A stretch of 64,000 bases of DNA from contig CADEDY010000002.1 of assembly GCA_902826215.1 (NCBI GenBank), positions 272,824-336,823 on the forward strand, in the 5' to 3' direction. The position numbers and the translations under genes are program-made. Positions within the stretch are counted from its first letter, which is position 1; every line of letters begins with the position of its first letter. The stretch is from an uncultured Bacteroidota bacterium. Its GTDB lineage: Bacteria > Bacteroidota > Bacteroidia > Flavobacteriales_F > PHOS-HE28. Positions 50,199-53,796 of this stretch are shown here, piece by piece. The notes under the pieces were generated by a model. The model was not told the origin of the DNA. It made no database searches and saw only the letters and a list, made by a program, of their open reading frames with translations.

Positions 50199-51344
50199 TC
50201 ACAACGTCCCTCTATTCTCCTGCTCCCGCTCGATCGCCTCGAACAGCGCCTTGAAGTTGCCCTTGCCGAAGCTCTTGGCGCCCTTTCGCTGGATGATCTC
50301 GAAGAACATCGTGGGGCGGTCCAGCACCGGCTTGGTGAAGAGCTGCAACAGGTAGCCCTCATCGTCGCGGTCCACCAGCACACCGTGCTGCTTCAGCACC
50401 GCCAGGTCCTCGTCGATCTCGCCCACGCGGTCCATCACCGTGTCGTAGTAGCTGGGCGGCACGTAGAGGAACTCCACGCCCCGGTCCTTCAGCGCGCCCA
50501 CCGTTTCGATGATGTTGTTGGTGGCCACCGCGATGTGCTGCACACCGGCGCCGTTGTAGAAATCGATGTACTCCTCGATCTGGCTCTTCTTCTTGCCCTC
50601 GGCCGGCTCGTTGATCGGGAACTTGATGCGGCCGTTGCCGTTGCTCATCACCTTGCTCATCAGCGCGGTGTACTCGGTGCTGATGTCCTTGTCGTCGAAG
50701 CTCACCAGCTGCGCGAAGCCCATCACGCGGGCATAGAAATCCACCCAGGTGTTCATCTCGCCCCAGCCCACGTTGCCCACCATGTGGTCGATGAACTTCA
50801 GGCCGGTGGGCGGCGGGTTGTAGTGGCTTTTCCACGCCTTGTAGCCGGGCAGGAAAGGGCCTTTGTACTCGTTGCGCTCCACGAAGATGTGCACCGTCTC
50901 GCCGTAGGTGTGGATGCCACTTTTCACCACGTAGCCGTGCTCATCTTCCTCCTTGATCGGCTCCATGAAGCTCTTGGCGCCGCGCTTGGTCGTCTCCTCC
51001 CAGGCCTTGCGTGCATCGGGCACCCACAGGGCGATCACCTTCACGCCATCACCGTGCTTGCGGATGTGCTCGTTGATCGGGCTGTCCGGCGTCATCGGCG
51101 TGGTCAGCACCAGGCGGATCTTGTCCTGCTGTAGCACGTAGCTGGTGCGGTCCTTCATGCCCGTCTCCAGGCCGGCGTAGGCCACGCTCTGGAAGCCCCA
51201 TGCGCTCTTGTAGTAGTGGGCGCTCTGCTTGGCGTTGCCCACGTACAGTTCCACGTAGTCCGTGCCCAGCAGGGGCAGGAAGTCCTGTGCATCGGCCATG
51301 ATCTTCTCCAGGCCGTAGTCGACGTCTTTCAATCCGGTTGCCAT
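50199..51344 (-). CDS. hppD: 4-hydroxyphenylpyruvate dioxygenase
   Basis: A 381-residue Fe(II) enzyme that converts 4-hydroxyphenylpyruvate to homogentisate in tyrosine catabolism. The start MATGLKDVDYGLEKI is chosen because the longer frame adds 27 residues with no family resemblance and overlaps the promoter. Two vicinal-oxygen-chelate halves are seen; iron ligands are the His residues in FIDHMVGNVG and VQHIAVATNN and the Glu in MFFEIIQRKG. The substrate-binding C-terminal helix (GKGNFKALFEAIEREQ) is intact. It belongs with hmgA, from which it is now separated by an inserted DUF4238 cassette. It keeps a candidate promoter between itself and the cassette. Confidence 0.96.
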   Translation of the reverse strand: MATGLKDVDYGLEKIMADAQDFLPLLGTDYVELYVGNAKQSAHYYKSAWGFQSVAYAGLETGMKDRTSYVLQQDKIRLVLTTPMTPDSPINEHIRKHGDGVKVIALWVPDARKAWEETTKRGAKSFMEPIKEEDEHGYVVKSGIHTYGETVHIFVERNEYKGPFLPGYKAWKSHYNPPPTGLKFIDHMVGNVGWGEMNTWVDFYARVMGFAQLVSFDDKDISTEYTALMSKVMSNGNGRIKFPINEPAEGKKKSQIEEYIDFYNGAGVQHIAVATNNIIETVGALKDRGVEFLYVPPSYYDTVMDRVGEIDEDLAVLKQHGVLVDRDDEGYLLQLFTKPVLDRPTMFFEIIQRKGAKSFGKGNFKALFEAIEREQENRGTL

Positions 51345-51382
51345 GGTAGTAGGAGGTTGGTTCCTCGCGCTGTTCAGTGCCT

Positions 51383-51421: not shown

Positions 51422-51524
51422 TCATTGGGGCGTGTCCCTCGCAAATGCCTCGGGTCGGGCTTTCCCCTTCAAGTCCTCGGCTGGATTACCAGCCTCCGGG
51501 CTTTCCGGTACAATCCCTCACGCG
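51422..51524 (+). repeat. Left inverted repeat of the DUF4238 cassette
   Basis: Blocks shared with the complement of the right end, in order: TCATTGGGGCGTG, CAAATGC, GCTTTCC, CTTCAAGTCCTCG, GGGCTTTCCG, CAATC, CTCACGCG. The GGGCTTTCC block occurs twice (51457 and 51498). A perfect 6-bp hairpin GGCTGG-ATTA-CCAGCC lies between the two copies at 51479-51494. Confidence 0.85.
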
Positions 51525-51568
51525 TCCTCGCAAGGGCTAACTTGTTCCTCAGTATTGCAGCGAGTCAA

Positions 51569-52453
51569 ATGAGAAGGGGCAGTCGCAAAAGAGAATTTCG
51601 ATCAGATGACGGATCGAAGAGGCACCACTATATCCCGGAGCACTTTGTCAAGGGATTTGCGGATTCCGATCGAAAGGTGTGGATGTATGACAAGCAGGCG
51701 AAGCGTTTCTTAGGAAAGAAGGCTCCGAAGCAAGTCTTCTTCATCAATGATGATAACACGGCGTTCATTCGAGGACAGCGTAACACAGTAGCGGAACAGT
51801 CATTTGTACGGATTGATCACGTTCAAGCAGAGCGGGTGAAGGAGTTTCTCGCATGCCCGAACACTGATGACGGCATATCGGACGCACTTCATGCTCGCAT
51901 GTCCGAGCACATGCTGATGCAGTACTTCAGAGTGCCAAGGAACCGGGCGAAGTACGATTTGTTGTTCGACAACATGAAGAACTGGTCCGGCATGCTCGAT
52001 GGGGTAGAGTTCGATCCGAAACGGTTCGGCGCTACACATACGTTGAGGCAGCTTTCTAAAGCATACTTGCCGAAGGAACTCTTCTCAGCACTTCTTTCGC
52101 GCGTTGATGGCCAATGGATTGGAAAGACTTACGACAAGTGCAACCCAGAGATTTTGGTGCTCACAGACAATCCTGTCGTCTACTTAAAGCAGCCCGTGAA
52201 CCTGATGGATCTCCTAGGGTCCTGTATGCTGGCAATGTCAAGCGGGCGACTCTATGTTCGGGACTTTCAAAAGGATGATGATAGTCCGTTGATAACCATG
52301 ATCCAGTACAACGTCATGGCTATCCAGCAAGCGGATCGGATTGTATGTGCTTCGAGCAAAGAATCTCTTGTGAAGGCGGTTGATGCTTGGGAAGCTGCGA
52401 TACAGGTCCACGATGAAATGCTTGCGGCTCGAATCACAATGGGGGCCGAATAG
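51569..52453 (+). CDS. DUF4238 domain protein (cassette cargo)
   Basis: A 294-residue soluble protein. The start at 51569 gives MRRGSRKREFRSDDGSKRHH; the frame is open upstream, but that would run through the inverted repeat. KRHHYIPEHFVKGFAD at residues 17-32 is the DUF4238 opening (an H-x-(I/V)P-x2-(F/Y)-x3-F pattern), followed by VWMYDKQAKRF, NTVAEQSFVRIDHV and LTDNPVVYL further on. DUF4238 proteins are uncharacterised, scattered among bacteria and often near mobile or defence genes; a nuclease-like or defence role is speculation. Its codon use is more AT-rich than its neighbours, and it lies inside long inverted repeats. Confidence 0.82.
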   Translation: MRRGSRKREFRSDDGSKRHHYIPEHFVKGFADSDRKVWMYDKQAKRFLGKKAPKQVFFINDDNTAFIRGQRNTVAEQSFVRIDHVQAERVKEFLACPNTDDGISDALHARMSEHMLMQYFRVPRNRAKYDLLFDNMKNWSGMLDGVEFDPKRFGATHTLRQLSKAYLPKELFSALLSRVDGQWIGKTYDKCNPEILVLTDNPVVYLKQPVNLMDLLGSCMLAMSSGRLYVRDFQKDDDSPLITMIQYNVMAIQQADRIVCASSKESLVKAVDAWEAAIQVHDEMLAARITMGAE

Positions 52454-52529
52454 CCCAGATGTACAACCATCCTGCGGTTGGCCCGTCAAGCACGGAAGGA
52501 TTTCTTAGTGAGGAGGTTGAGGGGTGCTT

Positions 52530-52631
52530 CGCGTGAGCGATTGCAGCGGAAAGCCCACAGCGAGGAACGAGCGAGGACTTGAAGCGGAAAGCGCGACGGT
52601 GCCGCATTTGGGCACCGGCACGCCCCAATGA
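52530..52631 (-). repeat. Right inverted repeat of the DUF4238 cassette
   Basis: Reverse-complement counterpart of 51422-51524, with the same conserved blocks in the same order. It contains a perfect 7-bp hairpin, CGGTGCC-GCATTTG-GGCACCG at 52597-52617, whose loop is the conserved CAAATGC block on the other strand. The left end keeps the loop but not the stem. Confidence 0.85.
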
Positions 52632-52638
52632 GCCACCA

Positions 52639-53796
52639 TTACTCCACCCAACTCTTCCAGTACTTCCCGTCATCGATCTTCAGGCACTCCTCGGTGACCA
52701 TCAGGGGCTTGAAGGTGTCCACCATCACGGCCAGCTCGTCGGTCACCTTCTTGCCGATGCTGCGCTCCATGGCGCCAGGGTGCGGGCCGTGCGGGATGCC
52801 GGCGGGGTGCAAACTGATGTGGCCCGGGCCGATGTCGTTGCGGCTCATGAAGTCGCCGTCCACGTAGTAGAGCACCTCATCGCTGTCGATGTTGCTGTGA
52901 TTGTAAGGCGCGGGGATGGCCTGCGGGTGGTAGTCGTAGAGGCGCGGGCAGAAGCTGCACACCACGAAGGCATCGGTCTCGAAGGTCTGGTGTACGGGCG
53001 GCGGCTGGTGCACGCGGCCGGTGATGGGCTCGAAGTCGTGGATGCTGAAAGCGTACGGGTAGTTGTAGCCGTCCCAGCCCACCACATCGAAGGGGTGGCT
53101 GGCGTACACCAGCTCGTGCAGCATGTTCTGCTTCTTCACCTTGATCACGAAGCTGCCCAGCTCGTCGTGCGTTTCCAGCTTCTTGGGGCGACGGATGTCG
53201 CGCTCGCAGAACGGCGAATGCTCCAGCAGCTGGCCGAAGTAATTGCGGTAGCGCTTCGGCGTGTACATGGGGCGGTGGCTCTCCACGATGAACAGGCGGT
53301 TGTCCGCGTCCTTGAACTCCATGGTGTAGATCATCCCGCGGGGGATCATCAGGTAGTCGCCGTACTTGAAGTCGATGTTGCCCAGGAAGGTGCGCAGGGT
53401 GCCGCTGCCCTTGTGGATGAAGACCATCTCATCGCAGTCGGCGTTCTTGTAGAAGTAGTCCACGCTCTTCGCTTGCGGCGCGGCGAGCACGATGGCGCAG
53501 TCGCTGTTCACCAGCATGGTCTTGCGCGCGGCCAGGTGGTCCTTCTCGGGCTTGGTCTTGAAGCCGTGCAGGCGCAACGAGCGCATGTTCTTCTCGATCG
53601 CGATCTTGGGGCTCACGTCCTTCGGCTTCCGCAACTCCTTCACCATCGTGGGACGGTGGGTGTGGTAGCTGAGGGTGCTCATGCCATCGAAGCCGATGGT
53701 GCCGAAGAGCTGCTCGTAGAAGAAGCGGTCCTTGCCGTTCTTGAAGACGGTGTGCCGCTTGTGGGGGATCTTGCCGAGGGTGTGATAGATGGGCAT
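52639..53796 (-). CDS. hmgA: Homogentisate 1,2-dioxygenase
   Basis: A 385-residue Fe(II) cupin enzyme that opens the homogentisate ring to maleylacetoacetate, the step after HppD. Recognisable segments are MPIYHTLGKIPHKRHTVF, RNYFGQLLEHSPFCERDIRR, HPFDVVGWDGYNYPYAFSI and SLHPAGIPHGPHPGAME; the last holds iron-binding histidines. The length matches the shorter bacterial form. It is transcribed toward hppD. The cassette begins seven bases after its stop codon, so a former hmgA-hppD unit is likely interrupted. Confidence 0.95.
   Translation of the reverse strand: MPIYHTLGKIPHKRHTVFKNGKDRFFYEQLFGTIGFDGMSTLSYHTHRPTMVKELRKPKDVSPKIAIEKNMRSLRLHGFKTKPEKDHLAARKTMLVNSDCAIVLAAPQAKSVDYFYKNADCDEMVFIHKGSGTLRTFLGNIDFKYGDYLMIPRGMIYTMEFKDADNRLFIVESHRPMYTPKRYRNYFGQLLEHSPFCERDIRRPKKLETHDELGSFVIKVKKQNMLHELVYASHPFDVVGWDGYNYPYAFSIHDFEPITGRVHQPPPVHQTFETDAFVVCSFCPRLYDYHPQAIPAPYNHSNIDSDEVLYYVDGDFMSRNDIGPGHISLHPAGIPHGPHPGAMERSIGKKVTDELAVMVDTFKPLMVTEECLKIDDGKYWKSWVE

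Follow-up and report, generated by a model that had tools for sequence, protein, structure and literature searches.

Extended copies of the Flavo-1 motif mark the borders of foreign, often anti-phage genes at a few fixed chromosomal sites in a genus of Bacteroidota

Foreign genes, often with anti-phage functions, are exchanged between species at a few fixed chromosomal spots in the genus of the bacterium studied here, and their borders are marked by a dispersed, oriented element that belongs to Flavo-1, a so far unexplained 'RNA motif'. Flavo-1 was described as a candidate structured RNA of Bacteroidetes and was scored as not cis-regulatory (Weinberg et al., 2010; PMC2864571). In the transcriptome of Flavobacterium psychrophilum its hits are sense or antisense to transcribed regions, with many located outside them (PMC9723704), and no role is given in the open-access literature that was found. 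The association supplies a testable candidate role for a structured motif that has been without a function in Rfam since 2010, and the sequence model offers a way to locate variable sites with such borders, and the cargo in them, throughout Bacteroidota. We consider the chances to be about even that the elements serve as recombination borders of gene cassettes which an enzyme encoded elsewhere moves in trans.

The stretch of DNA analyzed (64 000 nucleotides, the window) contains one such unit, in which a single gene is enclosed by inverted repeats that are two copies of one 102-bp element (Table 1). An earlier note on this DNA described arms that align over their whole length and have perfect 13-bp ends. 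The inverted repeats and the 13-bp ends were recovered, the latter being followed by complementary blocks of 89% (27 nt) and 92% (26 nt) identity; however, the outermost TCATTG is not a shared consensus, as it is absent from the other copies, which have TTT there. The conserved start of the element is GGGCGTG, at 51428 and 52625 in the window copies. In other copies conservation runs a few bases further inward (CACGCG followed by RAATGCG), which the left end in the window lacks. With the left arm as a genome-wide query the right arm was matched at E = 1.8e-11, so that the pairing of the arms is not due to chance, and more than ten further places were matched.

Table 1. Positions of the bordered unit and its neighbours in the window
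Feature	Position	Strand	Remarks
hppD, host gene	50202..51347	-	5' end toward left element; conserved neighbour in relatives
Left border element, outer to inner	51422..51524	+	Core 51428-51524, GGGCGTG...CACGCG; covariance model R1, 98.4 bits
Perfect 13-bp outer end TCATTGGGGCGTG	51422..51434	+	Mate 52619-52631
Outer stem P1 of left element	5' arm GCGTG 51430..51434, 3' arm CACGC 51519-51523	+	Covariation
Cargo gene, DUF4238 protein, 294 aa	51569..52453	+	PF14022, E 9.9e-14; segment GC 0.50
Right border element, inverted copy	52530..52631	-	Core 52530-52625; covariance model R1, 102.4 bits
hmgA, host gene	52639..53796	-	3' end 8 bp from right element

The GC content of the cargo is low compared with the value of ~0.60 in the outer flanks of paired copies throughout the genus, and no transposase is present within the unit, both as the earlier note had stated. 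The unit does separate hmgA and hppD, as also claimed there, because these genes are only 26-29 nt apart in four relatives. The DUF4238 protein had no match in PADLOC, and its predicted structure (pLDDT 45) was too poor for use. Homologues of this protein elsewhere occur without elements, so the cargo can occur alone, and a specific link between DUF4238 itself and the elements was rejected on the same grounds.

The two window copies are members of a family of elements of ~80-130 nt with at least 23 copies in the source genome. A profile search of the regions around the left-arm matches yielded ~20 copies, 11 of which were used to build the covariance model R1. This model found 26 copies in the source genome at E values of up to 0.001, or 23 under stricter filters, the E values being approximate according to the tool itself; a mechanical procedure was used to call open reading frames. 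Copies were present in 22 of the 23 genomes of the genus and in seven of 16 genera of other families. The GGGCTTTCC-CAATC words that the earlier note mentioned for other Bacteroidota are real, and searches with the repeats gave many copies in this genome, in the genus and in other families.

From the outer to the inner side, the element consists of TTT-GGGCGTG, a side hairpin (loop CAAATGC), the box TC-SSG-C-TT-TCCGCTNC, a stem AAGTCC...GGGCTT closed by an apical hairpin of variable length, the second box TCCGCTNC-AA-T-CSS and CACGCG-RAATGCG. A single strand of it forms a long, imperfect hairpin that carries one side hairpin. In the alignment, as read by eye, the SSG before the first box mirrors the CSS after the second (GGG/CCC, GCG/CGC, CGG/CCG and AGG/CCT), the next two positions pair as well (TT/AA, TA/TA, TC/GA, TG/CA and CA/TG), and so do the outer bases (GCGTG/CACGC, GCGTT/AACGC and GCGCG/CGCGC). 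Across 16 pairs in an alignment of 96 copies, standard pairs fill 96.2% of the cells compared with 34-52% in six slid versions, and 140 cells are changed on both sides compared with 7-20. At one pair of P1, GC is replaced by UA in 14 of the 96 copies. The model used for this alignment contained P1 and two pairs of P3, so the support for P1 leans on the model; P2 and the remainder of P3 were left out and therefore constitute independent evidence. The folding energies of single copies as DNA are mostly no more stable than those of shuffled sequence, and the case for the structure rests on covariation.

Both window elements match Flavo-1 (RF01705), the left one on the opposite strand at 51449-51542 (34.5 bits, E 3.4e-5) and the right one at 52526-52602 on the forward strand (33.0 bits, E 9e-5). 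Other copies, from other families and from one other genome of the genus, match at 33.7-35.6 bits. These matches were obtained at permissive thresholds, and neither the window copies nor the other tested copies reach the Rfam gathering score of 42 bits. The consensus secondary structure and the conserved boxes of Flavo-1 were nevertheless found in full-length model alignments, together with independent covariation. The core fold, the conserved boxes (GNAGCGGA twice) and the Bacteroidetes host are common to both, whereas an outer stem (GCGTG/CACGC) and a side hairpin are present only in the window-type element, which is found on both strands, bordering gene cassettes. Judged by these alignments, the window repeats are copies of an extended Flavo-1 element, a membership in a known structured family that the earlier note overlooked.

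Further copies were seen in other settings. A BLAST search against a phage collection gave no match; one copy lies on a viral contig, 8 nt past a terminase-like gene (L243, 3725-3812). A metagenome-assembled genome (MAG) of termite-gut Spirochaetales (JAISAF01; L247-L320) has at least 65 copies, which are spread over 33 contigs among housekeeping genes and whose inner spacers are packed with perfect AT/GC palindromes; here one P1 pair occurs as C-G, A-T, G-C and T-A. A 78-nt copy begins at the stop codon of a gene for a small serine recombinase (L062, 5396-6066), and the same match region (query 29-102) is found in ~70 conjugative plasmids of the Bacteroides group from several Bacteroidales genera. 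In addition, the loop of the side hairpin can contain a common Bacteroidetes repeat of the CCCTTCGACTCCGCTCAGGG type (L118, 5282-5405; L099, 8604-8724; L059, 2604-2730), which also touches the outer edge of about ten copies.

Within the genus, the elements are strictly oriented toward the foreign DNA. The GC content of the 450 bp on the inner side of paired copies (n = 56) is 0.522 compared with 0.602 on the outer side (p 1e-9). About half of the analyzed genus copies are solo, with cargo at one side only, and these (n = 50) show the same contrast (0.537 and 0.597; 41 of 50, p 6e-7). Neighbouring pairs within 6 kb are convergent in 13 of 22 cases, divergent in five and direct in four (p = 7e-4 against one quarter). 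The convergent units span 0.5-5.3 kb and hold XamI and other restriction-modification genes, SLFN_AlbA_2 proteins, AbiV, putAbiC, Fic, a ThsB-like TIR protein, a HerA-like ATPase and unknown genes; the cargo as a whole is rich in restriction-modification, Schlafen/AlbA_2, Abi, TIR, Fic, Hachiman and GmrSD genes. When one protein per side was chosen mechanically as the longest frame, 75 inner-side proteins matched 354 PADLOC families and 44 outer-side proteins matched 23, numbers that give a direction and not a rate because the families overlap. No transposase was found among 40 cargo proteins scanned with Pfam. Later cargo scans gave one IS110 gene and one DDE_Tnp_1 gene, which are read as nested IS insertions and apart from which no recombinase was found inside the units; the IS110-like gene is split in two frames and lies inside a unit at the hppD site (L115, 967-1988). 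Outside the genus the setting differs: in several other families of Bacteroidota most copies lie between housekeeping genes, and the GC contrast is nil in one genome (G185) and small in five others (0.363 compared with 0.334).

The sites themselves are few and their contents change. Between hmgA and hppD, four relatives are empty and several others carry a unit with different cargo, as a comparison of relatives proposed in the earlier note brought out; the left junction, GGTCATTG followed directly by GGGCGTG, is common to the window and two other genomes (G008 and G054). The repeats are not unique to this locus, and no relative has the DUF4238 gene here with unrelated flanks. At fadB-fadA convergent units occur in ~14 genomes, three of which have one XamI gene in common and two another gene, the rest being different. 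Two of these units (L058 and L094) have ends that are 99% and 96% identical around different cargo, the change taking place at the inner edges. At the 3' end of an aldehyde dehydrogenase gene the element lies within ~100 nt of the stop codon in 20 of the 23 loci with enough sequence to be counted, with an identical orientation in every case, and by their inner sides the 23 loci form 20 cargo groups. This site has no partner element within 16 kb, and the loci become homologous again at the next conserved gene, 2.4-5.9 kb further along. More generally, elements often start 0-100 nt from a host stop codon. A cargo-proximal stretch is common to two different sites (L122 and L193, 76% over 192 nt).

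Two further features were observed. In other genomes the hotspots at hmgA-hppD (L137, L140, L141, L145, L147 and L154) and fadB-fadA (L189, L191, L199, L200 and L204) contain a gene of ~400 bp, which by its look codes for a four-helix (23S-IVP-like) protein and is flanked by the short repeats GATCAGA or GTCCTATGTCCGATG; it perhaps represents another type of small cassette. Duplicates of the carB and fadB 3' ends were seen beside inserted genes, adjoining an element (L052, 10806-11099; L094, 4362-4600).

Several candidates for the mover were examined. No target duplication longer than 3 bp was found in 29 convergent units, and a transposon with terminal inverted repeats or a MITE was rejected on this basis and on the lack of a transposase belonging to the unit. 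A Y1/RAYT transposase was likewise rejected: an element was near only one of 30 loci with a Y1 gene (PF01797), a further match at such a locus (E 0.99) having been discounted. Tyrosine recombinases, including an integron-like XerA/IntI relative that occurs in the genus, are located away from the elements and were rejected as movers. Integrase-like genes had no element within 1.5 kb, no match to the integron integrase TIGR02249 exceeded the cut-off, no attI-like core was found near 126 copies and none of these copies had both RYYYAAC and GTTRRRY cores; with attC cores absent and no integrase adjacent, integron cassettes were rejected.

Three known systems resemble the one described here. Integron cassettes and their attC sites also combine foldable single-strand hairpins by orphan cargo with high turnover and defence genes, but the elements lack the attC cores, their pairs are convergent and there is no integrase beside the arrays. 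The pdif modules of Acinetobacter (XerC/XerD) similarly consist of one or a few genes flanked by recombination sites in inverse orientation, and the enzyme is encoded elsewhere. The pdif sites are ~28 bp in length with two 11-bp arms, whereas the elements here are ~100 nt with covarying stems. REP/REPIN sequences with RAYT are dispersed hairpin repeats in inverted pairs without a transposase of their own, but the present elements are three to five times longer, have gene-sized spacers and lack Y1 linkage.

If the elements are recombination borders, the cargo, often an anti-phage gene, would lie inward of a single element or be enclosed by a convergent pair, and a cassette without a recombinase would be inserted or exchanged at a few intergenic sites by an enzyme acting in trans. 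This enzyme would recognize the element, probably in its folded state, and would cut and join the element itself; a single-stranded or extruded form of the DNA would be the favoured substrate because of the fold. The observations behind this reading are the element family, its covarying fold, its orientation toward foreign DNA and the way in which cargo varies at fixed sites, and under it an undiscovered enzyme would move anti-phage genes between species. The earlier note had suggested a family of non-autonomous gene cassettes moved by an enzyme encoded elsewhere. Its first part holds insofar as copies flank different, foreign and defence-rich cargo in the source genome and its relatives with no mobilizing enzyme inside, but about half of the copies analyzed in the genus are one-ended and in several other families copies lie between housekeeping genes; for its second part no enzyme was linked to the elements, and use of the repeats by one is what the arrangement would imply. 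In a few ends (for example L112, 8597-8694) the arms differ in type; recombination within the element may have left such footprints, although the cases are too few for proof. A broader proposal is made only tentatively: Flavo-1, rather than being an RNA, might be the site of recombination in a novel gene-capture system of Bacteroidota, in which non-autonomous defence cassettes with folded single-strand DNA ends enter fixed chromosomal sites through an unknown recombinase in trans, a functional counterpart of the integron without an adjacent integrase.

The main rival, which is rather unlikely in our view, is that resident repeats mark permissive intergenic space and do not move, foreign genes arriving by other routes (homologous recombination via conserved neighbours or other recombinases) and gathering beside them. 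It owes its standing to the elements among housekeeping genes elsewhere, the DUF4238 homologues without elements and the lack of a linked recombinase. Cargo-free elements in other families and in the spirochaete MAG, one-ended sites and near-identical ends with different cargo at one site fit it well, and the duplicated carB and fadB 3' ends would be footprints of homologous or illegitimate exchange. However, mere landing pads would not account for the strict orientation to cargo, which extends to solo copies, or for the excess of convergent pairs, and the closest match of an end often lies at another site, same-site best matches numbering 22 of 75 under the site labels used. An RNA function is improbable: as a regulatory RNA that is transcribed, or as a terminator or insulator, the element would sit at the margins of foreign genes and separate them from host operons, and the inverted arrangement would shield both sides. 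The listing of Flavo-1 as an sRNA in Rfam, the proximity to host stop codons and the strong secondary structure agree with this, but the transcriptome work (PMC9723704) shows neither a consistent strand nor consistent transcription, enclosed copies occur in both orientations relative to genes, the U run of intrinsic terminators is absent, and the structure together with cargo turnover is left unaccounted for.

The remaining explanations involve familiar mobile elements. That a REP-like element is moved in trans by a RAYT/Y1 (HUH) transposase, the convergent pair being a giant REPIN-like structure, is very unlikely; the hairpin repeat in inverted pairs is suggestive, as is one genome (G035) whose only copy lies ~160 bp from a Y1 gene, but the other 29 Y1 loci are without an element and the copy-rich genomes G030 and G036 have no Y1 gene. 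Ordinary inverted repeats of a composite element or insertion sequence, or chance, can scarcely be credited despite the inverted repeats around one gene, given the lack of a transposase and of target duplications in 29 units, the covarying fold and the variable cargo; the misfit with a standard insertion sequence had been pointed out correctly in the earlier note.

A separate arrangement was noticed in most of the genus genomes searched. A tyrosine recombinase of 390-450 aa (XerA/IntI-like, with an N-terminal DUF5710-like domain) lies directly before a single foreign gene, which is low in GC and varies from species to species (L500, 2180-3535 and following; L493, L496, L499, L501 and L502). 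In L500 and L502 an attC-like inverted repeat ending in GTTRRRY follows the foreign gene, and the whole resembles a chromosomal integron that has one cassette and an unusual integrase.
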